IMG/VR virus record: IMGVR_UViG_3300003409_000047
Span: 72-20,848 of that record
Strand: one strand, 5' to 3'
DNA length: 20,777 nucleotides
DNA from: a virus
Both the position numbers and the translations under genes were made by a program. The notes beneath the pieces are model-generated. The model was not told the origin of the DNA, searched no databases, and worked only from the letters and a program-made list of their open reading frames with translations. Positions 3,908-19,591 of the stretch are shown here, in pieces (position 1 is the first letter of the stretch; every line of letters starts with the position of its first letter).

Positions 3908-6577
3908 TTATTCAAAATCAAACAAACTGTTAAATGTGTTGTCTTGCCTTGTTTGACTGATGTCCCAGTCAAGCACACCGATCAAGTTACCGAGTTTTTC
4001 ATCAATAACTGTTCTTTCCATTTGGGAATCATCAAATGGTAATTCTTTGAACCATTCTGGAAGCCTAAGTTCGTCAACCGGATAAGCCACACTAGTAAAT
4101 CCCATTGGGTTATCCTTTACTTTACAAACAATAACTTTAGCACCGTCCGTGATGTTCATTGAATACTTGTCGCCGTTCATACGCTTGAGTGTGTTCCAGT
4201 TAATACTTGCTCTTACGTGTCCTGGCATATTTGCTTTACCAAGTTTCTTTTCCTTTGCTTGGTATTCGGTAATCTTATTAGCACGTTTAGGCGAACCTTT
4301 CTCCCAACCCGGCCTTCCATGAAAGTCTGTTCTAAACTCAGTAATGTAATCTAGTACTGCTTCCTTTTCTTTACCTGACAACACCATTTCTAATACTTCT
4401 TTTAAAAAGTCTTGAATTACAACAGGAGTATCTGATCGCTTAAGATCTAGACCCATTGCCTTGATGTTACCTTCTTTACCGTCTGTATCTACACGGAAAC
4501 CTTCCATGTCATAGTACAGTACAGCATAACGTTTCTTGGTAATAAACAGTCCGCTTACAGCAACTACTTCTCGACCTGCTTTAATTACTTCGCCTCTACT
4601 CTTAGGACAATGAAACTTGTCTAACATCATTTTAGGAAAACTTGCTGATGCTTCGTCCGCGATTTGATCGTAAAGTTTCACGATACTATCTTTATCCCAC
4701 GGAATTTGTCCTTTTTCGATTTCATTACGAAGAACTGGATACGCACTAAAATAGCAAGAGTCAGTGTCGCCATAGATAACTGCTTTACCTTTGTAGTCGT
4801 ATTCACCTGTAATAATTTCGTTAATCTTACTAGCCATGTGTTTAACAATAGTACGACCAGTTAGTGTGGTCGACTGTCCGATTCTATTATCAAAGAATCT
4901 ACATCCTGGATTAAGAATAGCACCATACAAACTGTTCAAGTTAATCTTCTTAACTAGCTGACGCTTGTCCCAATATTCGATTTCAATTTTATTTCCAGCA
5001 TCTTTGGCTTCTTTTAGTTTGGCTTGCATTTCTTTACGTTCAGCATACCAACGTTTTAGTAGTCCAGGAATGATACCTTCTTTTTCGTAAGTAAAAATTG
5101 TACCGTTAGCACTAAGCATCCACGGTTGATTACTCTCAAAAATTAAGTCATAAATTTGAGCGCCTGATAACGTATCGCTGTTACCATCTTCCCAGTCGAT
5201 AGTAATTTCTTTTGCTACATTACGTTCCATAACAAGTTCGTATTCTAAACTACCAAACTGCCCTTCCCATGCCGCGGCAAACGACTTCTTATTACGAATC
5301 ATTTGTTCGTCGATGTAGTTCTTGGTATAATCCTGTCGTAGTTGTCCTACGATAGTTTCTGGACCCATGTTCAACGCACGAATCGCTGACGGATACAGAG
5401 AGTTGATATCTACGGAGCCAATCCATTGTGCGATGCCTTTTTTAGGATACGCAACATAAGCACCTGCCGCAGGTTCACTGCCGGGCTCTCGCCTAATCCT
5501 GTTAGGAACGATAAAGCCACGTCTGTGTGCCTCGTTGATAATACCTTGTTCTGTAACAGCAACAGCACCCATTGTTGTTTGTAGCATAACAGTATTTTCA
5601 TGAGCAACTGTGTTTGCGAGATCAATAAACTTTAGTTTCTTATCTAGTTTGTCCAACAGCGCAGTATCCTGTCTGTTATATTCAATGAACGTTCTAAAGT
5701 CATTGTTGTATAACTGATCAAGTGTGCCTTCGTAAACAGTTTTATTTTCGCCGATTTCCATTTCGCCAATAGCATCTAGTCGATATGTATGACGTTCTTC
5801 ATAGGTATATTTGCGATATAGTTCAAGACTGTCTAAGTGTACACGACCGTAAAAGTCATACGTAACACTTTGTCTACCAAACTTTTCGTACTCACGCTTC
5901 TTAGGAAGTTGATCCCATAAGCAAAAACGTCTAGTATCCTCTTTGCTTAGTACTTTAGTTACACGATTAACAGTATACGGAATATCAAAGCCTTCACTGT
6001 TCCAACCAGTTAAAATGTCAGCATCTTGAATTAGGTCCAAGAAAGCATCTAAAAGCTCACCTTCTGTTTCAAACAAGTAAGTGTTGTCAAACTCTTTAAC
6101 AGCATCTTGTGCTTCTTCCATAGACATTGTTTTGGGAGGAATCGCAAAACAGACTAATGTATCTAACCACTGAAGATGAATAGCAATAGATGTAATTGGC
6201 ATAAACGCATCTTCTGGCGATGCGTAACCACGTTCCGGATCAAAGTCGACCTCAATATCGAAAAACGCAACATTTAGTTTAGGTGCGTCTTGATTGAGAT
6301 AGTTGTCCTCTAAACATCTAAAGATAGGATTGATATCACTTTCGTATAGTTTTTTATTGCTGTAGATTTTTTGTTCTTTGTGGAAGTCTTTTAGATTTTT
6401 ACACGTTACTCGAGACAATGGTTCTCCATGAATGCTAGTGTACTTTCCTTTAGCATCTGGATAATAAAAAACATATCTTGCAGGGTATTCTTTAAATTGA
6501 CGCTTACCTTCGGCGTCTCGTTCGACAACATGAATAGTGTCGGTATCACGGTTGTAGAAAGCATCTACGTAACTCAT
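3908..6577 (-). CDS. 43: Replicative DNA polymerase, family B (gp43-like)
   Basis: The 889 residues match T4 gp43 (898) in length and motif order. Proofreading exonuclease: Exo I FFDIEVDF (Asp107, Glu109), Exo II TGWNSEGFDIPY (190-201), Exo III EYNRQDTALL (299-308). Polymerase: motif A SVDINSLYPS (388-397), motif B KRQLVKKINLNSLYG (538-552), motif C VIYGDTDSCYFS (600-611). The extreme C-terminus, DNTFNSLFDFE, resembles the clamp-binding tail of T4-type polymerases. The gene is intact, with no intein or homing endonuclease. The start at 6577 is supported by AAGGAGAT 3 bases upstream, and a hairpin at 6593-6612 may be an autoregulatory operator. Confidence 0.97.
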   Translation of the reverse strand: MSYVDAFYNRDTDTIHVVERDAEGKRQFKEYPARYVFYYPDAKGKYTSIHGEPLSRVTCKNLKDFHKEQKIYSNKKLYESDINPIFRCLEDNYLNQDAPKLNVAFFDIEVDFDPERGYASPEDAFMPITSIAIHLQWLDTLVCFAIPPKTMSMEEAQDAVKEFDNTYLFETEGELLDAFLDLIQDADILTGWNSEGFDIPYTVNRVTKVLSKEDTRRFCLWDQLPKKREYEKFGRQSVTYDFYGRVHLDSLELYRKYTYEERHTYRLDAIGEMEIGENKTVYEGTLDQLYNNDFRTFIEYNRQDTALLDKLDKKLKFIDLANTVAHENTVMLQTTMGAVAVTEQGIINEAHRRGFIVPNRIRREPGSEPAAGAYVAYPKKGIAQWIGSVDINSLYPSAIRALNMGPETIVGQLRQDYTKNYIDEQMIRNKKSFAAAWEGQFGSLEYELVMERNVAKEITIDWEDGNSDTLSGAQIYDLIFESNQPWMLSANGTIFTYEKEGIIPGLLKRWYAERKEMQAKLKEAKDAGNKIEIEYWDKRQLVKKINLNSLYGAILNPGCRFFDNRIGQSTTLTGRTIVKHMASKINEIITGEYDYKGKAVIYGDTDSCYFSAYPVLRNEIEKGQIPWDKDSIVKLYDQIADEASASFPKMMLDKFHCPKSRGEVIKAGREVVAVSGLFITKKRYAVLYYDMEGFRVDTDGKEGNIKAMGLDLKRSDTPVVIQDFLKEVLEMVLSGKEKEAVLDYITEFRTDFHGRPGWEKGSPKRANKITEYQAKEKKLGKANMPGHVRASINWNTLKRMNGDKYSMNITDGAKVIVCKVKDNPMGFTSVAYPVDELRLPEWFKELPFDDSQMERTVIDEKLGNLIGVLDWDISQTRQDNTFNSLFDFE

Positions 6578-7311: not shown

Positions 7312-8223
7312 TTATTCTGAAATAATTTTTTTGGATACGTCCCAAATACCGCCACGTGATTCGTAAATCTTAGCGGCAACTGCTTCTGCTTTTAGACCAC
7401 CTTCGGAAACTTTTGAGCTTGCGACACGCTTTGCCCAATTCCAAAGGATTGTATCAACAGCATCAATTTTCATTTCGCCGTTACTTTCTTTTACAATCTT
7501 GATAGCATCTAAGAACTTCATTGATTCAGCAACTGCTTGCTTCTTAGTAGCAACAACTGATTCAGTTTTAGCACCTTTCTTGTTAGCAATGGCTTTTTGT
7601 AAGCCTGCTGGAAGTTTCTTTTGTTTTGCTGAAAGTCCTTTTGAAGCAGGCTTTTTCTTGTCTCCGCCTTTTGCTTTTTTATCTTTTTGAGCTTTTTCAA
7701 TTGGCTCTTCTTTATTGCCGTCACCGTCAACATCTGGATAATCAGGCATTTTCTTCTTGGCTTCTTTAACAAGTTTGGACTTAACAGATTCAAGGATATT
7801 TTCAATTTCTTCATCAAAAGTTTTTGCTTTTTCTTCTGATTCGTTTTTAACTTTAACTTTTTCTAGTTTGGCACCTTTGTTAACAAATTTGCCTTCAACT
7901 TCTTTAACTTTGGACTCTTCTACAGTTTCAACAGACTCTTGTACCTTGTTACAATCACAGTGAGAGCAACCAGGGCCGCAAGTGCAATCTTCTGCTTTTA
8001 CATCAGAACCGCAACACTTGTCTGAGCAGTAACCTGCTTTTGCTTCATCAACTTTTTGTGATTCAGCAAGCACTGTTGAAATACCTGCTTTGATACGTAG
8101 TTGTGCCGCTTCACTAAGCATTACTGGTGCTTTTGTGTCTGCTTTAGGAGCTTCAGCATCGGGATTAGCGATGTCCGTAGGCTCAATATCTCTTAATTTT
8201 TTTACGATTGCGTTAAAGTCCAT
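7312..8223 (-). CDS. Head-interior/prohead-core-like polyprotein, 303 aa, with Cys cluster
   Basis: This is a highly charged, low-complexity protein made of modules. Residues 66-91 hold eight cysteines plus His88 (YCSDKCCGSDV...DCTCGPGCSHCDC), a likely metal-binding knot, with no other cysteine in the protein. Residues 164-169 carry a DVDGDG calcium-loop-like motif. A Lys-rich linker contains LSAKQKKLPAGLQKAI (197-212). A C-terminal folded part includes AVDTILWNWAKRVA. Several hydrophobic-x-Glu|Ala/Ser/Gly positions (Glu38, Glu54, Glu60, Glu145, Glu154, Glu233, Glu274) fit the T4 gp21 prohead-protease pattern, suggesting cutting during maturation as with T4 core proteins. It is the last gene before the terminator. 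The start has an AAGGAT ribosome-binding site. Function is inferred from composition and context. Confidence 0.75.
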   Translation of the reverse strand: MDFNAIVKKLRDIEPTDIANPDAEAPKADTKAPVMLSEAAQLRIKAGISTVLAESQKVDEAKAGYCSDKCCGSDVKAEDCTCGPGCSHCDCNKVQESVETVEESKVKEVEGKFVNKGAKLEKVKVKNESEEKAKTFDEEIENILESVKSKLVKEAKKKMPDYPDVDGDGNKEEPIEKAQKDKKAKGGDKKKPASKGLSAKQKKLPAGLQKAIANKKGAKTESVVATKKQAVAESMKFLDAIKIVKESNGEMKIDAVDTILWNWAKRVASSKVSEGGLKAEAVAAKIYESRGGIWDVSKKIISE

Positions 8224-8227
8224 TGTT

Positions 8228-8575
8228 TTATCCTTGTTTGCGTTTAAGCCACTGCTCTTGTAGGCTTTGTGTTAGTTCTTTTTGTACAGATTCATTGTAT
8301 GATTCTGTTTCATCCTCGTCAGGAAGTTCTGCTGTAGTGTCTGTATCGCCGAACTTTGACTCATACTTCATGTAATGATATACACTAGCAAGATAATCGC
8401 TTGCTTTAGTAATCTTAGCCTGAGTCCAACCTTGTAGCTCGTCACCAGATTCAATCATTTTGAATAGTTTTGTTGCGTATTCAGCGGCTCTATATAGCTC
8501 GCTTCTAGCCATATCAGCTTCATGATCCGGCTTCACATCATCTGCTTCGTTAATAATTGACACTTTTTTCTCCAT
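8228..8575 (-). CDS. Probable head-interior protein, 115 aa, with prohead-protease-type N-terminus
   Basis: The N-terminus MEKKVSIINEADD contains Ile-Asn-Glu|Ala at residues 8-11, a good match to the T4 gp21 cleavage pattern. The rest is a compact helical domain: ADMARSELYRAAEYATKLFK, then QAKITKASDYLASVYHYMKY, followed by an acidic C-terminal third. I recall this helical domain in T4-like marine phages, without known role. The start at 8575 has no clear ribosome-binding site; instead GATAAATA lies exactly 5 bases before the ATG. The gene ends 4 bases before the 303-residue protein, indicating co-expression. Confidence 0.8.
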   Translation of the reverse strand: MEKKVSIINEADDVKPDHEADMARSELYRAAEYATKLFKMIESGDELQGWTQAKITKASDYLASVYHYMKYESKFGDTDTTAELPDEDETESYNESVQKELTQSLQEQWLKRKQG

Positions 8576-8592
8576 ATAACTATTTATCTTTG

Positions 8593-8835
8593 TTAGCCTC
8601 TTTTAAGCACACCCTGGCCAGCCATCAATTCGTCACCGTCTAGTGCGTTTGGAGCAACCTTACCCTTGTGAAATTTAGGCTTTTGTGTTTTTGGTGCTCT
8701 TGTACCACTTTTTCCGGGCGAACCAGTATAAGACTTGTCTTTACTGTGTTTAGCAACAGGTGTACCTGAGCTAACTGCTGGAGTAGCAGTAGCGGTTGCT
8801 GAAGCATATTCTACTATAATATCTCTAATCTTCAT
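8593..8835 (-). CDS. Basic head-interior-like protein, 80 aa, with capsid-targeting-type N-terminus
   Basis: It begins MKIRDIIVE|YA, closely like the T4 internal-protein targeting peptide MKTYQEFIAE|A in length and in the final hydrophobic-x-Glu. After the presumed cleavage the chain is Ser/Thr/Ala/Pro-rich, then strongly basic (KSGTRAPKTQKPKFHKGK), and ends with NALDGDELMAGQGVLKRG. No fold is evident, so it is probably disordered. The start overlaps the stop of the preceding gene by 4 bases (ATGA). Confidence 0.75.
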   Translation of the reverse strand: MKIRDIIVEYASATATATPAVSSGTPVAKHSKDKSYTGSPGKSGTRAPKTQKPKFHKGKVAPNALDGDELMAGQGVLKRG

Positions 8836-9017
8836 TTTATTTCCGTAACGGTTCTAATAACACTCTTTTTACCATACTGTGCTAATACAAGTCTACGTGC
8901 CATTTCTCTGTTCTTTGCTACTACAGTAGTATCAATAACTTGGCTGTAAGAAGGCATATTAACTTTTATGCCAACCTTCCATAGTTTAAAACCTTTTATT
9001 AGCTCTTGGTACTTCAT
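8832..9017 (-). CDS. Small basic protein of unknown function, 61 aa, in the head-protein cluster
   Basis: The protein starts MKYQELIKGFKLWKVGIKV and ends VAKNREMARRLVLAQYGKKS followed by VIRTVTEIK. It looks like a single small alpha/beta domain (strand, strand, helix, strand) and is net positive. The N-terminus is reminiscent of the cluster's targeting peptides but lacks a clear hydrophobic-x-Glu site. The start follows the previous stop by 7 bases and has AATAAATA 4 bases upstream instead of a ribosome-binding site. The stop overlaps the next start by 4 bases. Confidence 0.7.
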   Translation of the reverse strand: MKYQELIKGFKLWKVGIKVNMPSYSQVIDTTVVAKNREMARRLVLAQYGKKSVIRTVTEIK

Positions 9018-9024
9018 AATGTAT

Positions 9025-9267
9025 TTATTTCTTTTTAGACTTGCGCTTTTTGTTTGAAAATAACTTTTTAACGTTCATGTATTCGCCGCCCACAGGAACA
9101 TCAGCGGTAGCGTTTTGCTTGGTTACAATACCAACACCTGCGGCATCCTCGTTTTTCTTCCGTCCAGCACAATGCGCTTTCTGCGAAAACCCCTTAGGAT
9201 TACTACAGTTAATTGAGCGTTTGTATTTATTGCTCCATTTCTCTGTTACAACTTCTGCTATTCTCAT
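9025..9267 (-). CDS. Basic head-interior-like protein, 80 aa, with NCSNPKGFSQKAHCAGRKK module
   Basis: The N-terminus MRIAEVVTE|KW has the hydrophobic-x-Glu ending of capsid-targeting peptides. Residues 19-37 form a basic module with two cysteines (NCSNPKGFSQKAHCAGRKK) that I recall from several T4-like phage structural proteins. The C-terminus FSNKKRKSKKK is polybasic, suited to binding packaged DNA. The start overlaps the preceding stop by 4 bases. Confidence 0.75.
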   Translation of the reverse strand: MRIAEVVTEKWSNKYKRSINCSNPKGFSQKAHCAGRKKNEDAAGVGIVTKQNATADVPVGGEYMNVKKLFSNKKRKSKKK

Positions 9268-9464
9268 TTCTTTTTCTTCTTTGGTAAACCCTTGTGCTTT
9301 GTAGCGGCAAAGTCTTTTACATCTGACTTTTTCATGTCCTTGGCCACTTTACCCGCTTCTCCGCTCTTTTTCATATCGCCTTTCTGCATTGCTCTAACGA
9401 TACCAAAGAATTGTTGTTGTTTTTTGCTGGCCGCCTTTTCTGTTACAATGTCTCTAATTTTCAT
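9264..9464 (-). CDS. DUF3008-like basic protein, 66 aa, with capsid-targeting-type N-terminus
   Basis: After MKIRDIVTE|KA, almost identical to the start of the 80-residue protein at 8593-8835, comes a module very like DUF3008: KKQQQFFGIVRAMQKGDMKK, AGKVAKDMKKSDVKDFAATK, HKGLP. The protein ends in a run of five lysines. DUF3008 proteins are small, basic and of unknown function, and are found in bacteria and phages. Here the family module appears as a likely packaged cargo. Four-base overlaps with both neighbours indicate coupled translation. Confidence 0.8.
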   Translation of the reverse strand: MKIRDIVTEKAASKKQQQFFGIVRAMQKGDMKKSGEAGKVAKDMKKSDVKDFAATKHKGLPKKKKK

Positions 9465-10576
9465 TTCTTTCTACCTGATTTCATATTAGCACACCAGTGA
9501 TACATTTTGGCCTTTTCGCCTGAGCTGTTCTTAGCACGTTTGCGTAAATCTGTCACGCTACCGTTACAACTAGCACCTGAACGCTTTACACGCCCTGGTC
9601 TGCTTTTGCCTTTTACTTTACCGTCAGCAAAGTTTTCTTTAATAACTGACAATGCTTCTAATATATCTTCTGATGTAATAGTATAACGCATTTTTCCTCT
9701 AGGCTTTAGAGTCTTGCCTACGATAAATTTCAACCATTGCGAAATTTGTTCGTAATCGTTTGTTTGTTGTATTTTATCAGCGATTAGATCAACTACAATA
9801 CCTTTGACTGAGCTAGTAGGAACAACAAGCTCACCTTCACGTTGAATACTTTCTCCACCGCCATCGCCACCCATGTCGCCTCCGGAGCCTCCGATAGATC
9901 CTACAAATCCTCCGACCGGGTATCCGTAACGCAACTTACGTTTTTTCTTTTTGCGTCCTTCTTCAACTTCGTCATCCTTGGTTGCTATCATCTTGCCCAA
10001 GTCTCTGCTCTTGAGATTCTGTGGTTGATGTTTCTCTTCCCCTGAGCCAATTCGTCTGGCACGATTTAGGCCATCCAGAATGACTTTTAATGAATCTTCG
10101 TCTGCTTGAAACTTGACTCCGATGCCTCCTGCTTTTTCCCATGCTGTTATATTCGCTCCTCTGTCGTCGATCAATACATTAGGTGTACCGTCTGCGTTTA
10201 CCGCATGTTTTTCTTTATTTGGTGTAATAAAAATTTCTGTGGGTTGAGGATTTAAATGTTTTTTAATCCACTCTCTTTTGTGCTTTTCTGAATTGGCAAA
10301 ATCGTTTCTAAGTGGACTAGAGATAATACCGTAACTACCTGCGGCTTGTACAGCAAGATCTACAATTTTATCTGTTACAGGAAATTTAGGAAGTCTAGCA
10401 AAAAAATCAGTACCAACCATTTTATCAAGTGTAGGATCAACTTTAGCAGGAGGTACATCTCTGTAGCTCTTTGCTCCGGCAAGTTTAGCATACTCCTCAA
10501 AGAAGTTTGCTAGAACACCATCCATGTCTAGATAAACTTTTACACCTTTTGGTAGCTCTAATTCACTTGCTCTCAT
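9461..10576 (-). CDS. HAD-type nucleotidase-like enzyme fused to a basic head-protein tail
   Basis: Residues 1-175 form a HAD-superfamily hydrolase like the 5'(3')-deoxyribonucleotidases: motif I YLDMDGVLANFF (15-26) with the two aspartates, a GIISSPLRN segment (83-91), a lysine region around 122-124 and motif IV LIDDRGANI (135-143). Substrates would be phosphomonoesters, perhaps nucleotides. At 204-207 VEE|G, followed by a Lys/Arg run and a Gly/Tyr-rich stretch (219-241), looks like a prohead-protease site and linker. A helical domain (258-315) and a basic Cys-containing tail (CNGSVTDLRKRAKNSSGEK, then KMYHWCANMKSG, 337-368) follow. The fusion suggests an enzyme carried into the head or released by processing. 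Four-base overlaps join it to both neighbours. Confidence 0.8.
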   Translation of the reverse strand: MRASELELPKGVKVYLDMDGVLANFFEEYAKLAGAKSYRDVPPAKVDPTLDKMVGTDFFARLPKFPVTDKIVDLAVQAAGSYGIISSPLRNDFANSEKHKREWIKKHLNPQPTEIFITPNKEKHAVNADGTPNVLIDDRGANITAWEKAGGIGVKFQADEDSLKVILDGLNRARRIGSGEEKHQPQNLKSRDLGKMIATKDDEVEEGRKKKKRKLRYGYPVGGFVGSIGGSGGDMGGDGGGESIQREGELVVPTSSVKGIVVDLIADKIQQTNDYEQISQWLKFIVGKTLKPRGKMRYTITSEDILEALSVIKENFADGKVKGKSRPGRVKRSGASCNGSVTDLRKRAKNSSGEKAKMYHWCANMKSGRKK

Positions 10577-10785
10577 TTTCTACCTCTAAACTTTGCTGGC
10601 ATTCCTAACCAATAAGGTCTGCTAAACCAAAGCTCAAACCATTCTTTATCACCCGGCTTGATTTTTCTTTCTCTTTCAATTTCTTTTTTTTCAGTACCTG
10701 TGACACTGATATTAGAACCTTCGTATGGTTGATAGCCCTTAAATTCGTTAATACCCGCTAGTGTCTTTAGTCTATCTAAATCCAT
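10573..10785 (-). CDS. Small head-cluster protein, 70 aa
   Basis: The start MDLDRLKTLAGINE|F contains Ile-Asn-Glu at 12-14, compatible with prohead-protease cutting. Downstream are KGYQPYEGSNISVTGTEKKE, a charged helix (EIERERKIKPGDKEW) and a conserved-looking aromatic segment FELWFSRPYWLGMPAKF. No enzyme motif is visible. The frame overlaps the NMNAT-like stop by one base and the HAD gene start by 4 bases, so it is translated as part of the coupled chain. Confidence 0.75.
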   Translation of the reverse strand: MDLDRLKTLAGINEFKGYQPYEGSNISVTGTEKKEIERERKIKPGDKEWFELWFSRPYWLGMPAKFRGRK

Positions 10786-12185
10786 TATTGATCATCTACT
10801 GGTTTTCTAGTTAAAAGAATCTTGCCTTGAAGTTGTGGTTTGTTTTTAATAATAGCAAGTGCGTAGTTGTTAGCACCTTTCTTTACACTGAATACTTTAG
10901 GCTCACCTTTTTGCTTATAAATTTTACCGTCAATTTTAATATACCAAGGACCCTGTTGGTCTCTTTTCATAATCTCATCTTCGTGTCCGAGCTCGTATTC
11001 TAGTTCTTTACGTTTAAATTCTCTTTTAGAAGCACTACCCCAGTCAAAGTCATCGTATGCTTCGTTTTTACCTGCGTTTGCCATTTTAGGATCCAAATCA
11101 GCAACTCCTTTAATTTGTGCTAATTTATGCAAGTCATTTTTGTCTAACGGACCTGCTGTAATACGCTTAGGATAATTTAATTTAATATATAATTCAAGAT
11201 CTTCTTTGTCCATATATGCGTATGGAGTAAAGTCTGCGTCTATGGTCTTACCTTGGGGAGTCACAATAGTGTGCCAAATCTTTACATTGTCATCTTCTCG
11301 ATCTTCGTCGGGCATGTATTTGTGGCCCATTACTTCTATATCGAGATAACCTTCAGCAATTGAATTCATATCGTATTTCTGGCCCTTGTGTTTTTGATAA
11401 CCAGTGTTTTGATCTCTCTTTTTATCCTTGTGAGAACCTGCGGCATTACTTCTGCGAAGTGCTTCCATATCACGCCAATTAGGATCTCTTGGTTTAATCG
11501 AAGCACCACCCATTGGCTTCACCAATGTTGCTTCGCTTTTATTTGATTGATGATTTAAGCCAAGTGCTTGACGTACATCATCAAACATTGGTTTTGCTAA
11601 ACTTTCTACAGGTACACCCTTTTTAAAAGTTTCAAAATCATTATTTGCTGCCGCTTCACGCATTTTACTTGCGCTCATGCCACTAGCATCGTCTGCTTCT
11701 TCGTCTCTAAATCCACCTTCTTCAACACTAACTTCTTGGATGTTAAAGTTAATATGTCCTGCTTTGTCAGGCGTATTATTAAAAGGAAGAACTTGACTTT
11801 CAAATTCTTGTACTCTGTCCGAACCACAAACAAGAACTACCTTCTCATAGCCCTTGGTTTCTAAACTTTTCATAACAGCCATAATAGTGTTTAGGCTAGG
11901 ATCTGTACTAATAGGAATATCAAAAAACTTTTGTGCGTATGATAGTTTCTGTTTCCATTGTAGTGGATTTTTGATTTTGTCCCAAGGTCTAAGTTTTTGT
12001 GTTTTATCAGTTAGAAAAGGTGTATGGGTCATTGTTAAAAACAATATAGGATCTCCCCCATATTGTTTTGCTTTAGCATTGATAGCATCGACCAGCACAC
12101 CGTGACCTGTTGTTGGAGGATTTAATCTTCCAAAACCAATTACTGCAGTTTTTAATTTATCCTCAAAAAGGTCAAATAATCTCAT
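10785..12185 (-). CDS. NMN-adenylyltransferase/cytidylyltransferase-like enzyme fused to head-protein modules
   Basis: Residues 12-210 form a nucleotidyltransferase of the HxGH superfamily: IGFGRLNPPTTGHGVLV (16-32) with the TTGH signature, VVLVCGSDRVQEF (116-128) and MSASKMREA (170-178), corresponding to the ISSTxxR motif. Such enzymes transfer AMP or CMP, for example to NMN. The enzyme is preceded by MRLFDLFE|D, a Leu-Phe-Glu start resembling a capsid-targeting peptide. It is followed by a basic linker, Ile-Ala-Glu|Gly (276-279), an acidic beta domain, and a C-terminal module with GPWYIKIDGKIYKQKGEP and ANNYALAIIKNKPQLQGKI. Superfamily assignment is firm; the substrate is not. The start overlaps the preceding stop by 4 bases. 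Confidence 0.85.
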   Translation of the reverse strand: MRLFDLFEDKLKTAVIGFGRLNPPTTGHGVLVDAINAKAKQYGGDPILFLTMTHTPFLTDKTQKLRPWDKIKNPLQWKQKLSYAQKFFDIPISTDPSLNTIMAVMKSLETKGYEKVVLVCGSDRVQEFESQVLPFNNTPDKAGHINFNIQEVSVEEGGFRDEEADDASGMSASKMREAAANNDFETFKKGVPVESLAKPMFDDVRQALGLNHQSNKSEATLVKPMGGASIKPRDPNWRDMEALRRSNAAGSHKDKKRDQNTGYQKHKGQKYDMNSIAEGYLDIEVMGHKYMPDEDREDDNVKIWHTIVTPQGKTIDADFTPYAYMDKEDLELYIKLNYPKRITAGPLDKNDLHKLAQIKGVADLDPKMANAGKNEAYDDFDWGSASKREFKRKELEYELGHEDEIMKRDQQGPWYIKIDGKIYKQKGEPKVFSVKKGANNYALAIIKNKPQLQGKILLTRKPVDDQ

Positions 12186-12526
12186 CCGTTGTAGTCCTTG
12201 CTTTTGATATGTGCTAATTGCTCTTCAGCGATCCTTTTTGCTAATTCTAAAATACTTTCATTACTAAAAATATCATCTTTAATATCTGACAATTCATATT
12301 TGTCAGCATAATGTTCAGCACATTGTTTCAATGGCTTTACATAAAATTTATAAGAAGTTTCGTCATCGGGATTCTGTCTGTGTTTTTTAATAGCAGGAAA
12401 TAATACATTAGACACGATATCATTGTCGTTATCAATATAAAACTTTAGATCGTCTAGATAATTAATATCTGGATTTAATCTAGGATCTTCGTTATCGGGT
12501 CTTGAAAATAATTCCATTAATCTCAT
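12182..12526 (-). CDS. Small acidic protein of unknown function in the head-protein cluster, 114 aa
   Basis: The start chosen, at 12526, gives MRLMELFSRPDNEDPRLNP, close to the MRLFDLFED start of the next gene. It has AAGGAG (12538-12533) 6 bases upstream. A start 81 bases further up would overlap the previous gene by 71 bases and lacks such a signal. The protein is acidic and helical, with DLKFYIDNDNDIVSNVLFPA, a central YKFYVKPLKQCAEHYADKYE and a C-terminal LAKRIAEEQLAHIK helix. No known domain was recognised. It ends overlapping the NMNAT-like start by 4 bases. Confidence 0.75.
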   Translation of the reverse strand: MRLMELFSRPDNEDPRLNPDINYLDDLKFYIDNDNDIVSNVLFPAIKKHRQNPDDETSYKFYVKPLKQCAEHYADKYELSDIKDDIFSNESILELAKRIAEEQLAHIKSKDYNG

Positions 12527-12532
12527 ACTAAA

Positions 12533-12538
12533 CTCCTT
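12533..12538 (-). promoter_or_regulatory. Ribosome-binding site that decides the start of the 114-aa protein
   Basis: AAGGAG on the minus strand lies 6 bases upstream of the ATG at 12526-12524 and overlaps the stop codon of the preceding gene (12539-12537). It supports this start over the longer frame beginning at 12607. Confidence 0.8.
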
Positions 12539-13760
12539 ACCACTTACGGCATGACCAGTAACGTGCTTTAGTGCGTGGACCTGGATTAGCGCAGTTGTGT
12601 CTGGCACGGAAACTCTTGCGTCTAGCAGGATTAGATTTTTTAATCTTCATGTTAGGATCACCAAAGTTTACTTTTTTAACATTACCTGTCTTTGGATCAC
12701 GTACATATACTTTAAACTTCTTAACGTCGCCTCTTGTAGGCTTGCCAAGGCTTACTTTGCGTCCTTGATATTCTGCTTCTTCAACGCTTTCTGCTCTTGC
12801 TGAACTTACTTGTGCTCTGATATTATCAGCACCTTTCATTCCTGCTTCAAGTGCTTGATAGTCTTTTTTGATTTTTGCAGCGTGTTTTTGCATTTGATCA
12901 ATTTCCATCTCGTAGTAATCACGATTGGGACCTGGAGGAGTCATATACATAATATTCTCTGTACGCTTAATGGTATCCATTGTATTTTTATACAAGTCGT
13001 CTAATGCTTTTAATCTTTCTTCTGGACTTTCATTTGCTTCATCAACATTGATATCTTCTCTTTCCATCTCTGGATTAGGATCTTTAACTTTACTACGATC
13101 CCACTCAGCGCCGCCTTCCCATGCTTTAACAGCATCGTCAACAAAGCTCATAATTTCTTTCGGATCACTTTTCATGTCTGCTTTAGCAACAAAGTTTTTA
13201 ATCATATTGTATGTTTTGCTTCCAATAGCAGGGGTTTCTTCTGGAGCAACACTAACAATAGCATTAGCAAGTTTTTCTACATCGTTTGAAAGTTCAATAC
13301 CGGCATCTGTTTTAAAACTAATTTTTCCTGTGGCGTCAGCCATAAGTCTTGCGACATCAATCCATTTCTTTTCCGAGTCGCGCTTTTTATCGAGATCGAC
13401 GGTTGCTTCTTCAATATCTTCTGGGATACAACTACCTTTTGAACCACGTGTTGCGCCAGGCTTTTTGCGCCAACCTTTACGACACTTGTCATAAATTTTG
13501 CTGTTTCCGTGTTGCTCGCCTTCGTCAAGTTCTTCTTCAAAGACTTCGCCATCATATAAAAAAGCACCATTCTCTTGAATGTGTGCTAGTGCTTCGTCGT
13601 CTACATCGACAACGATTCCGTCCTCTAGGACGTCTGTGATTGTAGTTGAAATTTCTAAATCTTCTGAAAAACTAAGACCGAACTCGTCGCCTACTTGTGG
13701 GCCTGACGGTTCTGTTTGTGATTCTTCAATTTGCTTGAGCCTGTCAAGAATGTCGCGCAT
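12537..13760 (-). CDS. Multidomain head-interior polyprotein, 407 aa, with repeated prohead-protease-type sites
   Basis: The start MRDILDRLKQIEE|S resembles a capsid-targeting peptide. Modules are separated by hydrophobic-x-Glu|Ala/Gly sites: LDE80|G, IEE118|A, VDE241|A, VEE328|A. Between them lie an acidic beta domain (20-75), a basic Cys-containing module (GNSKIYDKCRKGWRKKPGAT followed by RGSKGSCIPE, 85-114), a helical domain (125-215), a coiled-coil-like helix pair (246-308), and a basic C-terminal module ending RRKSFRARHNCANPGPRTKA then RYWSCRKW (380-407). The last module is reminiscent of a basic domain common at the end of T4-like phage structural proteins. Maturation cutting would release basic peptides into the head. 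The leader forms a nine-pair hairpin around the start (13759-13795). Confidence 0.8.
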   Translation of the reverse strand: MRDILDRLKQIEESQTEPSGPQVGDEFGLSFSEDLEISTTITDVLEDGIVVDVDDEALAHIQENGAFLYDGEVFEEELDEGEQHGNSKIYDKCRKGWRKKPGATRGSKGSCIPEDIEEATVDLDKKRDSEKKWIDVARLMADATGKISFKTDAGIELSNDVEKLANAIVSVAPEETPAIGSKTYNMIKNFVAKADMKSDPKEIMSFVDDAVKAWEGGAEWDRSKVKDPNPEMEREDINVDEANESPEERLKALDDLYKNTMDTIKRTENIMYMTPPGPNRDYYEMEIDQMQKHAAKIKKDYQALEAGMKGADNIRAQVSSARAESVEEAEYQGRKVSLGKPTRGDVKKFKVYVRDPKTGNVKKVNFGDPNMKIKKSNPARRKSFRARHNCANPGPRTKARYWSCRKW

Positions 13761-14169: not shown

Positions 14170-14844
14170 TTATTTATCCTTGATTACGAATTTGTATATT
14201 GTGCCTACAAACTCAGGACTATGAAGTTTCATAAACAATATTAGATTTTCATCTTCAATAAGTATGTATCTACGATCCCAATTTATGTCAGTGTTAAGGA
14301 ACCAATTAGTAAGACTTTTAGAAAGTGTAGTCTTGTCACCCTGCTGTGCTAGCCATGTAACAAAATTACTTTTCTTATCATATGTTCCGCAATGCGGTTT
14401 TAAATAAACCCTATATTGAAACCTTTTGTGAGGTAGTCTTTTTACAAATATTGATTTTTCTTGAGATACTAATTGATCAATATTTTTTGGATCAGGCTCA
14501 GCAATTAATCTAATATACTCGTTGAATTCCATTTCAACATGTTTGATTAAATTAGTATCGTTTGTATACAAATCAAGCAGGTCGCCTTCGATACGTTTTT
14601 GATAAGTTTCTTTTTTGTAGTTGTTTAGTAAAAGACCAAGTTCTATTAGTTTATCTTTGTTACCAGCCGCACGGTTATACAAACTATGCGGATAGTAAGA
14701 ATCTTGTCTATGATCGTTGAAGTAATTTGATAAGTGTGATACGTCATTTTTGTAACGCATCACACTTACGCCAGGTAGCCTTAAACTTATTTTATAAAGC
14801 CATTTACTGTAAAATAAACGAGTTGTTTCATTACGTATCGTCAT
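14170..14844 (-). CDS. Unknown protein, 224 aa, overlapping the ClpA gene
   Basis: No known family was recognised. The N-terminal third is basic and aromatic (RLFYSKWLYKISLRLPGVSV, then MRYK). The middle is helical and charged, with LIELGLLLNNYKKETYQKR and HVEMEFNEYIRLIAEPDP. The C-terminal third is strand-rich, with FVKRLPHKRFQYRVYLKPHC, NWDRRYILIEDENLILFMKL and a YKFVIKDK end. There is no signal peptide or membrane helix. Its start lies 14 bases inside the end of the ClpA gene, so the two are translated together. By context it could be an adaptor or substrate partner of the phage ClpA, which has no ClpS-like gene nearby, but this is conjecture. Confidence 0.8.
   Translation of the reverse strand: MTIRNETTRLFYSKWLYKISLRLPGVSVMRYKNDVSHLSNYFNDHRQDSYYPHSLYNRAAGNKDKLIELGLLLNNYKKETYQKRIEGDLLDLYTNDTNLIKHVEMEFNEYIRLIAEPDPKNIDQLVSQEKSIFVKRLPHKRFQYRVYLKPHCGTYDKKSNFVTWLAQQGDKTTLSKSLTNWFLNTDINWDRRYILIEDENLILFMKLHSPEFVGTIYKFVIKDK
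14171..14178 (-). promoter_or_regulatory. Late-promoter-like box 5 bases before the 116-aa gene start
   Basis: GATAAATA on the minus strand matches seven of eight bases of the T4 late consensus TATAAATA. With T4 spacing, RNA would start at the A of the ATG at 14165. The same arrangement occurs before starts at 8575 (8581-8588), 19591 (19597-19604) and 3101 (3107-3114), and one base closer at 9017 (9022-9029). Confidence 0.35.
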
Positions 14845-17155
14845 TTGGAATAAGGTTACCCTTCTGTATTCTATTGTGTGCTTTCATTGCTCTTTTTTGA
14901 AATTTATCTAAGTCGTCTCCTAGATTTTTAATTTCGAATGATAGCGCATCATCAACAATAGTTACAAAAACTCTGCCACCTTCTTTTAGATCACCAAATA
15001 GAATTTGGCGACTTAACGGCGATTTAATGCTTTTATCGATGATTCTTGACAATGGTCTTGCTCCCATCTTAGCATTATAACCTTTTTCAGCAAGCCAATC
15101 TCTTGACTTATCATCTAATACAATTTCAACATGCTTGTCTTGAATTTGAAGATTAAGTTCACGGATAAACTTATCAACAATAATACGTACAGTTTCTGGT
15201 TGTAGTTTACCAAATCTTACGATAGCATCGAGTCTATTACGGAACTCAGGAGCAAAGTATTTTTTAACTGCTTTAATATCTTCGTCATTTACTTCAAGGT
15301 CGTCGAACCCGATGCTGTTGCGTTCATTGTCAGCGGCACCTAAGTTTGAAGTCATAATAACAATAGTATTACGAGCATCTGCTTTTTTACCATTAGACCC
15401 AGTAACAAAGCCGTTGTCCATTAATTGTAGTAAAATATTACTTACATCTTTGTGTGCTTTTTCAATTTCATCAAGCAAAAGAATTGAATTAGGATTCTCT
15501 TGTAGTTTTGTAATAAGCTGTCCTGAATCTTCATCGTGTCCTACATATCCTGGAGGAGCACCAATTAGTTTAGCAACTGAGTGTTTCTCTTGATATTCTG
15601 ACATATCAAATCTAATCAATGGCATTGACATTTTGTCTGACAACTGTTTTGCTGTTTCAGTTTTACCACAACCTGTCGGACCAACAAACAAGAAACTACC
15701 AATCGGCTTGTCTGGTGATTTCATTCCGGATTGTGCTACAAAAATCTTATCAAGTAAGTTTCCAATAGCATCGTCCTGCCCAAACACTGCGTTCTTTAAA
15801 TTATTTTCTAAGTTAGCAAGATTAGTACTTTCTTTTTCACTAACATTCTCAAAAGGAATCTTAGTCATTTTACTAACTTCAAACATAATTTGTTCTAAGT
15901 CGACTAAGTTTGTTTCTTCACTAGGATCGTCGATTACTTTAAATCTAGCACAAGCACAGTCGATAATGTCGATTGCTTTATCGGGTAATTTTTTATCAGT
16001 CATGTACTTCACTGACATTTTAACTGCTTGGTCAATAGCGGCGTCAGTAATTTTAACATTGTGGTACTGTTCGTAATAACGTTTCAGTCCACGAATAATC
16101 TTTCTAGTAAGTTCTGGGCTTGGTTCCTCAACATCAACACGTTGGAAACGTCTCATTAGTGCGCGATCACTTTCGAAGTGTTTGCGATATTCTTCCCAGG
16201 TTGTACTAGCAATAACTTTTAATGTGCCTTTGGTTAACATAGGCTTTAGCATATTAGCAAGGTCGTTCGCACTTCCGTTTGCCGCGCCAGCACCATTCAT
16301 CATGTGTGCTTCGTCAATAAACAGAATGATTTTACCTTTCTTCTCTAATGCTTTTAATACTGCTTTTAACCGTTCTTCAAAATCACCTCGGTATTTACTA
16401 CCGGCAAGTAACGCACTAATATCTAAAGTGTATACCATGTGATCTTTAATAAACGTTGGAACTTTTCCTTGCGCAATTTTTAACGCTAACCCTTCAGCGA
16501 TAGCAGTCTTACCCACGCCTGGCTCGCCGATAAGCAATACGTTTGATTTTGTACGTCTTGCTAAAATAAGTTGAATATCTTCTAATTCAGTTTCACGTCC
16601 GATGACAGGATCAATTTTTTTCTGTTTAGCCTTTAACGAAAGATTATCACAATAAGCATTTAAAATTTTATCTAACTGTCCTGCTGACAACTTTTGTTCC
16701 TCGCTCTCTTCTATAAAATCATCGCACTTTTCGGTAAAGTATTCTAAGAATTTATCTTTGTTTATACCTGCTTTAGTCAAGTAGTAATAAGCGAAACTTT
16801 TCTTCTCGCCTAATATAGAAAGGATCATATCTTCAATTTCGATCCTGCTTCTGCTACTAAAAAGTGTTTGTGTAAAAGCTCTGTTCAAAGCACGTTCAAC
16901 ACTTTGAGTTCTGCGGGGCTTTTCTTTTAATTCTGGATTAGTAATATCTGTTAAGTTGTTCTTTAGATAATGTTCTAAATTAGCTTTAATGTAATCTGAC
17001 TTCGCGCCGAACTCCTCAAGACTACGATAAGTTTCCTCATCGCACATAATACTAAACATCAAATGTTCGATTGTTACATACTCGTGATTTAATTTACGAG
17101 CAATGTCAATAGCATGTTCAAAAACAGCCTGTAATTTATCACTGGGTTCTAGCAT
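14831..17155 (-). CDS. clpA: ClpA-type AAA+ unfoldase
   Basis: The 774-residue length matches bacterial ClpA (758 in E. coli). A Clp N-domain (1-145) is followed by two AAA+ modules. D1 has Walker A GEPGVGKT (210-217), Walker B LFIDEAH (278-284) and MRRFQRV (334-340). D2 has Walker A GPTGCGKT (492-499), Walker B LLLDEIEKAH (559-568), TSNLG (602-606) and FAPEFRNRLDAI (634-645). The ClpB middle domain is absent. The SIGF sequence at 614-617 aligns with the IGL loop by which ClpA docks on ClpP, so the product could load substrates into host ClpP, as no ClpP is encoded here. ClpA is uncommon in T4-like phages. The start lies 17 bases inside the deformylase gene, with GAGG 13 bases upstream. Confidence 0.95.
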   Translation of the reverse strand: MLEPSDKLQAVFEHAIDIARKLNHEYVTIEHLMFSIMCDEETYRSLEEFGAKSDYIKANLEHYLKNNLTDITNPELKEKPRRTQSVERALNRAFTQTLFSSRSRIEIEDMILSILGEKKSFAYYYLTKAGINKDKFLEYFTEKCDDFIEESEEQKLSAGQLDKILNAYCDNLSLKAKQKKIDPVIGRETELEDIQLILARRTKSNVLLIGEPGVGKTAIAEGLALKIAQGKVPTFIKDHMVYTLDISALLAGSKYRGDFEERLKAVLKALEKKGKIILFIDEAHMMNGAGAANGSANDLANMLKPMLTKGTLKVIASTTWEEYRKHFESDRALMRRFQRVDVEEPSPELTRKIIRGLKRYYEQYHNVKITDAAIDQAVKMSVKYMTDKKLPDKAIDIIDCACARFKVIDDPSEETNLVDLEQIMFEVSKMTKIPFENVSEKESTNLANLENNLKNAVFGQDDAIGNLLDKIFVAQSGMKSPDKPIGSFLFVGPTGCGKTETAKQLSDKMSMPLIRFDMSEYQEKHSVAKLIGAPPGYVGHDEDSGQLITKLQENPNSILLLDEIEKAHKDVSNILLQLMDNGFVTGSNGKKADARNTIVIMTSNLGAADNERNSIGFDDLEVNDEDIKAVKKYFAPEFRNRLDAIVRFGKLQPETVRIIVDKFIRELNLQIQDKHVEIVLDDKSRDWLAEKGYNAKMGARPLSRIIDKSIKSPLSRQILFGDLKEGGRVFVTIVDDALSFEIKNLGDDLDKFQKRAMKAHNRIQKGNLIPNDDT

Positions 17156-18500: not shown

Positions 18501-18854
18501 TTACTTTTTCTTATCGGAGTATGCGTTCGCACCAAAATAGGCTGCCACTAACGCAGAAATCGCTACAAAGTAAGTTGGAGCAATGTCGCCAATAATTGCC
18601 GCGGCTTTATCTAAACCAAACAAAGAAGTAATCATAATTGTTGTAGGATAAAGTAACATTCCAAACAACGCAAACCATGTCATGTATCTCATCGCATCAC
18701 GACGAGCATCAGCATCTTCTAGTGCCTTGCGTTTAAATTCTAGATCCATAGCCGCTTCTTCTGCGCTAATGTGACCATCACCATTACGGTCCATGTCTCT
18801 TGCTACGTCAGCATCGACTTCGACTGTAACTGTTTTCTTTTCTTCATCTGCCAT
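18501..18854 (-). CDS. Holin-like membrane protein with EF-hand calcium loop
   Basis: Residues 22-33 (DRNGDGHISAEE) are a textbook EF-hand loop with ligands at positions 1, 3, 5, 7, 9 and 12. A charged helix (34-56) follows, then two membrane segments (about 57-80, MTWFALFGMLLYPTTIMITS; and 92-111, APTYFVAISALVAAYFGANA), and a KKK end. Its size, two helices, charged C-terminus and place next to spanin and endolysin genes suggest a holin. The calcium loop at the N-terminus is unusual. The function is inferred from context only, and some other small membrane protein is possible. An AAGGAG ribosome-binding site precedes the start, and a late-promoter-like AATAAATA (18890-18883) lies upstream. 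Confidence 0.75.
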   Translation of the reverse strand: MADEEKKTVTVEVDADVARDMDRNGDGHISAEEAAMDLEFKRKALEDADARRDAMRYMTWFALFGMLLYPTTIMITSLFGLDKAAAIIGDIAPTYFVAISALVAAYFGANAYSDKKK

Positions 18855-18882: not shown

Positions 18883-18890
18883 TATTTATT
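18883..18890 (-). promoter_or_regulatory. Late-promoter-like box upstream of the holin-like gene
   Basis: AATAAATA on the minus strand matches seven of eight bases of the T4 late consensus and overlaps the o-spanin stop codon. It lies 28 bases before the ATG, leaving room for a leader with the AAGGAG site. This is a normal late-promoter distance, unlike the boxes 5 bases from starts. Confidence 0.45.
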
Positions 18891-19266
18891 TTGCTTCGGG
18901 TTGAATTTCCTCTGGCTTTACTGCTTCTTCGTAGTATAGAATAATTTGTTTTTGCTGTTCGATATATCTACGAAGTTCAGCAAAGTTTAGAGAAAGGTTT
19001 TCGTAATCTTTTACAGAGATAGCAATGTAAGCATCGCCGCCGTTCTTAGCTTCGAAGTCTTTTACAAATTCGTCATAATTTTCTTTTGAAACCACATAGA
19101 TTTTAATGTCATTCAGTTGAACTGGTTTAGGCCAAGCAACTGTTGGTACAGTAGTTTTTACTGTATTAGTTACTACTTGTATCTGTGGTTCCGGTCTGAG
19201 CATCGAGCATCCCGTTGTCAGGAGCAGTGATAGACTCAAGATCATCCCATAACTTATTAGTCGCAT
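18886..19266 (-). CDS. Outer-membrane spanin-like lipoprotein (Rz1-like)
   Basis: The N-terminus is a lipoprotein signal: MRLISYGMILSLSLLLTTGC with Cys20 as the lipidation site and Ser at +2, favouring the outer membrane. A Pro-containing linker (PTVAWPKPVQL) and a helical C-terminal part (VKDYENLSLNFAELRRYIEQ) follow. The first 101 bases overlap the i-spanin gene in another frame, the classic Rz/Rz1 arrangement. Spanins fuse inner and outer membranes as the last step of lysis in Gram-negative hosts. At 126 residues it is longer than lambda Rz1 (60). An AGAGAA ribosome-binding site lies about 8 bases upstream of the ATG. Confidence 0.75.
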   Translation of the reverse strand: MRLISYGMILSLSLLLTTGCSMLRPEPQIQVVTNTVKTTVPTVAWPKPVQLNDIKIYVVSKENYDEFVKDFEAKNGGDAYIAISVKDYENLSLNFAELRRYIEQQKQIILYYEEAVKPEEIQPEAK

Positions 19267-19591
19267 TTTGCATTCTCTGTTGAATTAAACCTGGCTTTTT
19301 ATTTGCCAAGTGTGTTAGATTGTGTTTTTGTAGAGTAGAACGAAGTTCATCTCCGTACTGCTCTGCTTTTTGTAAATCTGTACTTAGTTGTGTGTTTAGT
19401 TCGCCTAGTCTTTTGGACTCTGCTCTTTCAAGTTGTAATGATTGTTCACTAGTTTGAACAGCAATTTCCATTTTAGCAACATTGGCTCTAGCAGTTTCTA
19501 AATCACTTTGAAGTTTTTTGACATAGAAAACACCACCAGCGGCCGCTGAAAGTAATACTAAAATCATCGCAATTCTAATTGAACTAAACAT
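19166..19591 (-). CDS. Inner-membrane spanin-like protein (Rz-like)
   Basis: A single N-terminal membrane anchor (IRIAMILVLLSAAAGGVFYV, 5-24) is followed by a long coiled-coil segment (KLQSDLETARANVAKMEIAV to LQKAEQYGDELRSTLQKHNL, 26-92) and a conserved-looking LANKKPGLIQQRMQNATNKL in the C-terminal third. The topology is that of lambda Rz. It lies directly after the endolysin gene and contains the start of the lipoprotein gene. The start has GGTAAATA 5 bases upstream of the ATG and no ribosome-binding site, so it may depend on translation of the endolysin gene 8 bases before. Confidence 0.8.
   Translation of the reverse strand: MFSSIRIAMILVLLSAAAGGVFYVKKLQSDLETARANVAKMEIAVQTSEQSLQLERAESKRLGELNTQLSTDLQKAEQYGDELRSTLQKHNLTHLANKKPGLIQQRMQNATNKLWDDLESITAPDNGMLDAQTGTTDTSSN

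Follow-up and report, generated by a model that had tools for sequence, protein, structure and literature searches.

A candidate head-cargo operon of T4-type tagged polyproteins in a phage DNA fragment

Why would a run of phage genes encoding proteins with differing bodies share similar N-termini? We addressed this question in a 20,777-nucleotide stretch (hereafter the window) of IMG/VR virus record IMGVR_UViG_3300003409_000047 (positions 72 to 20,848), a 20.8 kb fragment of a phage that is also represented by a 54 kb contig (G001, L001). Its genes at 7312-13760 very probably form a head-cargo operon encoding targeted, protease-cut polyproteins, as judged from the N-termini and internal borders described below. 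All eleven consecutive open reading frames (ORFs) that an earlier sequence-only reading had placed there are present, on the minus strand and head to tail, flanked by a ClpA-like ATPase gene and a polymerase gene, both also on the minus strand; next to the block lie clpA-like and dnaJ-like genes. That reading had described the products as small, charged and mostly basic. The last part holds for 8/11 proteins (isoelectric points 7.7-10.3); three are acidic (8228, 12182 and 12537), and 4/11 are not small, with 303, 371, 407 and 466 residues. The window polymerase has its closest matches in Sinorhizobium phage Phosso (52%) and Agrobacterium phage Atu_ph07 (46%). The latter is described as belonging to the T4 superfamily and as a giant phage (PMC6102473); the phage of the window appears to be a giant marine phage. 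The block and its borders are listed below; genes are named by their first window coordinate, a slash marks a candidate cut and E is the expectation value.

14831-17155, minus strand: ClpA/ClpB-like ATPase (phrog_4871, E 1.1e-254), bounding the conserved interval on one side
12537-13760, minus strand: 407-residue putative polyprotein with N-terminal MRDILDRLKQIEE, a Cys module (DKCRKGW..GSKGSC) and C-terminal module C; candidate cut after E328 (codon 12777-12779), directly before module C
12540-12776, minus strand: module C, 79 residues, basic CxnC (AEYQGRKVSLGKP...RARHNC..YWSCRKW)
12182-12526, minus strand: 114-residue protein from the ATG (first base 12526), MRLMELFSRP; tag-like start with no cut Glu at T4 distance; relatives MLLKELF and MRLFEF
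10785-12185, minus strand: 466-residue protein, MRLFDLFE tag, then an NMNAT/cytidylyltransferase-like domain (phrog_3041, E 2.9e-44); internal candidate cut SIAE/GYLD (codon 11352-11354)
10573-10785, minus strand: 70-residue basic protein, MDLDRLKTLAGINE/FKG
9461-10576, minus strand: 371-residue protein with a 5'-deoxyribonucleotidase (NT5C, HAD) domain (PF06941, E 1.8e-6; phrog_2643), a basic linker and C-terminal module B
9464-9634, minus strand: module B, 57 residues, with SVIKE directly before it (codon 9635-9637)
9264-9464, minus strand: 66-residue protein, MKIRDIVTE/ and a DUF3008 module (PF11450, E 2.5e-5)
9025-9267, minus strand: 80-residue protein, MRIAEVVTE/ and module A (KWSNKYKRSINCSNPKGFSQKAHCAGRKK)
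8832-9017, minus strand: 61-residue basic protein starting MKYQELIKGF, which is tag-like but lacks a cut Glu
8593-8835, minus strand: 80-residue basic protein, MKIRDIIVE/YASATATATP...NALDGDELMAGQGVLKR; position and tail in common with the capsid-N-terminus mimic family
8228-8575, minus strand: 115-residue acidic protein, MEKKVSIINE/ADD
7312-8223, minus strand: 303-residue protein with a Cys-rich centre and 12 candidate [ILVM]-x-E sites, none of them within the first 14 residues
3908-6577, minus strand: family B DNA polymerase, the other border (closest named relatives as above)

The N-terminal motif inside and outside the locus

The sequence-only reading had noted seven proteins with Ile/Val/Leu-x-Glu in their first 14 residues. 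We likewise counted 7/11 when gene 12182 is started at its upstream GTG, and 8/11 with its ATG start, versus 2/17 other window genes (Fisher p=0.0018 for the eight). Since the bare motif is frequent in whole relatives (73/380 proteins of at least 60 residues in contig G014 and 30/132 in contig G011), 7/11 alone is suggestive only; genome-wide it is hardly enriched, the 73/380 of G014 comparing with 62, 61 and 77 in control windows. A comparative test across related loci makes the enrichment solid. The relatives were 79 contigs from two scans, the second of which supplied the best 80 of 592 confirmed relatives, and L001, L003, L004 and L005 were excluded as own, distant or duplicate. The comparison set comprised the 44 contigs with both borders (clpA to DNA polymerase), in which genes were called by a custom script. 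Raw counts gave the motif in 317/566 genes inside these loci versus 81/558 outside. Once redundant N-termini (50% identity over 25 residues) had been collapsed, it was present in 92/179 inside versus 21/123 flanking (p=5e-10), which confirms the pattern noted by the sequence-only reading. The inside fraction exceeded that of the flanks in 44/44 loci; these contigs are of common ancestry, so the p-values given here are guides only.

Enrichment is limited to this motif and to the first 14 residues, other motifs yielding little or nothing. No enrichment was found for [ILV]-x-E at residues 15-28 (36/179 vs 21/123, p=0.31), for [ILV]-x-D (30/179 vs 19/123, p=0.44), for the reversed E-x-[ILV] (40/179 vs 31/123) or for [AGST]-x-E in residues 1-14, the phiKZ-type rule (21/179 vs 26/123, p=0.99), and little for [ILV]-x-K (p=0.02) and [ILV]-x-[QN] (p=0.046). 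The position of the Glu is also telling: it falls at residues 8-10, the T4 length, in 48/179 N-termini inside versus 4/123 flanking (p=1e-8), at residues 4-6 in 32/179 versus 4/123, and at residues 15-21 in 26/179 versus 18/123. Typical starts in the relatives are MKIRDIINE, MKIHDIISE, MKITEVLVE, MRARQFINE, MKILEIIE and MRAKEFLTE. Most block proteins start with an 8-14 residue peptide of T4 targeting type, of the approximate form M-K/R-I/L-x-D/E-I/L-I/V-x-E.

Such starts recall the T4 internal proteins IPI, IPII and IPIII and Alt, with their short M-K propeptide, hydrophobic core and L/I-x-E before the cut, their differing bodies behind similar tags, and a gp21 protease family that the relatives of the window also encode. 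A propeptide of about 7-20 residues ending in L/I-x-E can be recognised in 7/11 window genes, and a matching site in the capsid protein of the lineage in G014, G011 and phage CBB. In contrast to T4, the window-type operon has many more cargo genes and often a 9-residue instead of a 10-residue tag, as well as repeated internal sites before exchangeable modules, other enzymes and capsid mimics, all of these cuts being predicted. The resemblance could also have a more trivial origin, namely recent duplication of small genes or constraints on translation starts in overlapping genes, with no targeting involved. Several block genes do overlap by 4 bases, two share the start MKIRDI, and K/R is enriched at the second residue inside the locus. 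Against this, the motif is carried by 49/108 non-redundant in-locus proteins without a BLAST match to any window protein, so that it does not mark one inherited gene family; moreover, enrichment is absent for the -x-D and reversed motifs and slight for -x-K.

Far from its window-type locus, at 327252-353945 and 5225-5485, G014 carries another group of genes whose products have tag-like starts (MKINEIVLE, MKIKDVMVE and MRFQEFKTLLTE/AAKVGR).

Glutamate at internal module borders

Different proteins of these loci share basic modules with paired Cys, of three unrelated kinds: module A (KWSNKYKRSINCSNPKGFSQKAHC), module B (NFADGKxKGKSRPG...CNGSVTxLR...YHWC) and module C (AEYQGRKV...RARHNC..YWSC). 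Long unrelated stretches precede module C; modules A and B follow either such stretches or a start tag. With search patterns that excluded the preceding residue, Glu was found at -1 in every copy in the loci, G011 and G014 (A 15/15, B 43/43, C 80/80), that is, in 53/53 distinct upstream contexts (10/10, 23/23 and 20/20, respectively). I/L/V/M occupies -3 in 49/53 of these contexts (A 10/10, B 20/23, C 19/20), and -2 is variable with no strong preference, except for D/E before module C. T4 gp21 is described as cutting after L/I-x-E (PMC9026906), and the simplest reading of the pattern would be a protease site at each module border. As the cut rule also appears at internal borders, the longer block proteins look like polyproteins. 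This recurrence of the Glu rule deep within proteins largely refutes duplication or start constraints as the source of the similar N-termini, an explanation that we now regard as highly improbable.

Homologues of module C from other phages behave in keeping with such a site. In nine small phages in which gp21 was not detected (HTVC026P, Kolga, CRP-901, HTVC111P, CRP-235, CRP-2, CRP-6, HTVC106P and HTVC202P), the homologue opens its gene, at the initial Met or close to it (M-AKYQGR for Kolga), and is preceded by neither a tag nor a cut site; the first stretch is different in CRP-235, CRP-2, CRP-6 and HTVC106P. In gp21-bearing C48C1, HTVC008M and immuto, module C is preceded by LTE, LEE and LDE. 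In the Roseobacter phage CRP-6 (L140 235-813), one fusion protein combines module C with a prohead protease of XkdF type (PF14550, E 1e-7).

Within gene 7312, a KKMPDYPDVDGDGNKEEP stretch (window 7642-7770) directly after LVKE/A resembles a further cut-out module; a pattern written for it found no second copy, leaving a single occurrence.

Small proteins resembling the capsid N-terminus

The same rule marks the capsid proteins of these phages. Those of G014, G011 and CBB carry LAE, LSE or LRE before SATAGATSAGN[VI]ATLN, and that of G014 is homologous to mature T4 gp23, suggesting a cut border at this point. Loss of the part before the border would lower the calculated mass of the CBB capsid protein from 42.1 to 37.2 kDa, which fits the putative border; for the related phage 121Q, gel values of 42.2 and 37 kDa are given for its capsid protein before and after processing (PMC5646251). 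Small proteins of the window-type loci resemble this mature N-terminus: the LAE/SATAGATSAGN of the G014 capsid compares with LIE/TASAGATSAGS in a locus protein that begins MRLRELIE/TASAGATSAGSVAAV, and the counterparts in G011 and CBB begin MKILEIIE/SASAGATGASGIATV and MKKKKVNE/NASSGATSAGGIASV. In each of these three genomes, no protein other than the capsid protein itself matches the capsid N-terminus better than the mimic, and only 0, 1 and 0 of 100 shuffled capsid peptides (G014, G011 and CBB) reach its score. Across the 44 loci, scores of at least 33 against the G014 capsid N-terminus were obtained for 34/566 inside genes, two of these matches being module-B proteins at the threshold score, versus 0/558 outside, and occurred in 32/44 loci. 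The 32 mimics scoring at least 38 represent 17 distinct contexts, with Glu directly before the mimic stretch in 17/17 and I/L/V/M at -3 in 11/17. Window gene 8593 belongs to this family by position and tail, its mimic stretch being degenerate in this copy.

Cyanophages provide similar cases with different capsid sequences. The virion protein gp160 of S-CREM2 and SSM2_108 of S-SM2 are likewise the top non-self matches of their own, different capsid N-termini (0 and 0 of 100 shuffles reach the score). SSM2_108 starts MKTLKQFLKE/TPTNSVGNGGYTSAGGQTVAGYD, beside MIAE/QPTNAVGNGGYTSSGGQTVAGFD in the S-SM2 capsid protein, and its C-terminal end is module A, a link between the cyanophage case and the window. 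Similar mimic proteins are encoded by S-SKS1 and DSL-LC02. When the own capsid was ranked among 15 N-termini, it came first for the mimic in 4/6 phages, tied first in DSL-LC02 and third in S-SKS1; that the mimic tracks the capsid sequence of its own phage is thus only partly supported. In T4, the N-terminal region of gp23 is described as disordered within the prohead and moving to the outer surface on expansion, and the 25-residue N-fist at the N-terminus of the capsid protein as contacting four subunits (PMC9958956). We tentatively propose, at somewhat less than even confidence, that marine T4-superfamily phages package polyproteins with modules split by prohead-protease sites, one released module copying the mature capsid N-terminus (the N-fist stretch in T4), so that cargo would dock on the shell by imitation, with the imitation changing along with the capsid sequence from phage to phage.

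Protease, virion proteomes and the fate of the predicted cargo

If the block products behave like T4 internal proteins, the tag would bind the scaffold core and bring the protein inside the prohead; a protease of the gp21 type would then remove the tag there by cutting after I/L/V-x-E. Internal cuts would release the basic Cys modules, the NMNAT/cytidylyltransferase-like enzyme and the 5'-nucleotidase and, in relatives, would also free the mimic of the mature capsid N-terminus. By analogy, the freed basic modules may neutralise packaged DNA or line the inner shell, and enzymes and modules would enter the host along with the DNA. Both injection and a role in DNA binding or packing are conceivable for the block proteins. 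The sequence-only reading had made the import signal hinge on a gp21-type protease in the genome. Peptidase_S77 (gp21-type) occurs in 7/17 large related contigs, the own phage being available as fragments only, and the family is present in all six of HTVC008M, S-SM2, Melnitz, C48C1, immuto and Atu_ph07, as well as in CBB and S-CREM2.

Published virion proteomes, all from cyanophages, place tagged homologues in the particle. The putative cytidylyltransferase T4-GC190 is reported among proteins detected in S-SM1 virions (Sullivan et al. 2010, PMC3037559); its S-SM2 member (130761-131987), a homologue of window gene 10785, begins MKSFFQFLSEAQ (MKSFFQFLSE/A). The 52 proteins listed for S-CREM2 virions include a cytidylyltransferase, a SAM hydrolase, a kinase and a Cas9-like nuclease, enzymes that the authors considered perhaps encapsulated and perhaps contaminants, with no mention of a targeting peptide in the available part of that report (PMC10665884). 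The S-CREM2 cytidylyltransferase begins MKNFSSFLTE/A; MKDFDSFLEE and VKRFDAFLTE are further N-termini of these virion enzymes, and the Cas9-like nuclease has RFASFMAE at residues 18-25. A T4-spaced pattern matches 5/186 S-CREM2 ORFs, 4 of them detected by mass spectrometry (MS). With 24 named structural proteins set aside, 4/5 matches fall among the 28 detected of 162 ORFs (p=0.0033), a pattern that is not blind, having been written after 57 S-CREM2 N-termini were inspected; the bare [ILV]-x-E gives p=0.044. The T4-like cyanophages S-SM1, S-SM2 and S-CREM2 resemble the window in their homologous cytidylyltransferase, their tag-like N-termini and the module A ending of SSM2_108; they differ in tags nearer T4 length, other cargo and loci elsewhere in the genome. 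As a separate observation, the nuclease gene at 7704-10313 of S-CREM2 OR473000 (L164), whose product was detected in virions (PMC10665884) and has the tag-like RFASFMAE/A, raises the possibility that a phage carries a Cas9 relative in its head.

Two other fates of the proteins were weighed against head cargo. Tag and internal Glu sites might serve another kind of sorting or degradation, for instance by the ClpA-like ATPase and DnaJ encoded next to the block, with cytoplasmic products; this is very unlikely, given that the site fits both gp21 specificity and the capsid-protein border of the phages themselves, that tagged homologues occur in virion proteomes, and that module C is joined to a prohead protease in CRP-6. 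Alternatively, the proteins could be scaffold or core components that are cut and gone before packaging and are not injected, as for most of T4 gp22 and gp67; T4 core proteins are described as being cut into several fragments, most of which exit the head (PMC9026906). We judge this unlikely, since the cargo holds enzyme domains without evident scaffold use and homologous enzymes stay in mature virions. Ejection proteins of phiKZ and SPN3US, cut by gp175/gp245, likewise form a bolus of inner-head proteins processed after Glu, but phiKZ is cut at S/A-x-E rather than I/L/V-x-E, and several SPN3US propeptides are long (127, 125 and 124 residues), unlike the short window tags.

Several findings speak against the head-cargo interpretation. 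The phage and its near relatives are known from sequence alone. The Pfam search for gp21 was negative on the own 20.8 kb record and the family is also absent from the 54 kb contig, although a missing gp21 says little in a 20.8 kb fragment. An N-terminal cut Glu is lacking in 3/11 genes (8832, 9461 and 7312), and 12182 has one only at residue 5; tag-like starts are seen in 8832, 12182 and 9461, with no clear cut Glu at the T4 distance. The first Glu lies at residue 5 in 27/92 motif-bearing N-termini, nearer than in T4. An AlphaFold prediction of module C gave no usable model (mean predicted local distance difference test 56, predicted template modelling score 0.34). Atu_ph07, the nearest of the phages whose virion proteomics was considered here, has no tagged cargo between clpA and polymerase; CBB, for which 55 proteins are reported as identified by MS, has only 9 strict-tag N-termini, by eye unlike cargo tags; and no capsid mimic was found in C48C1, HTVC008M or Melnitz, where 85, 19 and 28 of 100 shuffles reach the score. 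For T4 IPIII, targeting is reported to depend mainly on residues 4 and 7 and processing on 8 and 10, Asp at 10 stopping the cut with entry unaffected (PMC9026906). This separability of targeting from cutting may explain 12182 and 8832. A shared T4-type head-import signal, as the sequence-only reading had proposed, is supported by the position, length and motif of the tags, by gp21 in the relatives and by the tagged homologues in published virion proteomes.

Atu_ph07 was also considered as support, its virion-protein cluster (CDS 284-329) being described as taking in its clpA (PMC6102473), and was dropped, the clpA-polymerase genes there having no tags. Bubbling, expected of a large inner body, is described among six giant phages only for 121Q heads (PMC5646251).

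Some further genes were noted in passing. Melnitz (L126 5353-6609) encodes a DUF6267 protein (PF19782, E 3.6e-105) with a tag-like start, and look-alikes recognised by eye from an HLED stretch, with similar starts, lie in giant-phage loci (G014 351819-352913 and L066 gene 12). Beside a lysozyme-like gene, two genes overlap at window 18886-19591; their products show a membrane segment at the N-terminus and a start of lipoprotein type, and they are probably an Rz/Rz1 spanin pair. At window 18501-18854, two membrane-like segments come after an EF-hand-like stretch (DRNGDGHISAEEAAMD); this may be a holin.

Among open papers, judged by title and the start of the abstract, we found none that deals with capsid mimics or, for marine or Rak2-like phages, with operons of tagged cargo. 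What is new here is the extension of T4-type targeted internal proteins to polyproteins and capsid mimics. The sequence rule predicts which genes of no assigned function in giant marine phages and cyanophages encode proteins that ride in the head, and at which positions these would be cut. Many 'hypothetical proteins' could then be tested as injected cargo, among them enzymes whose substrates, during the first minutes after infection, may be NAD or nucleotides. A copy of the shell protein's own N-terminus would represent a possible new mode of docking cargo on the capsid.

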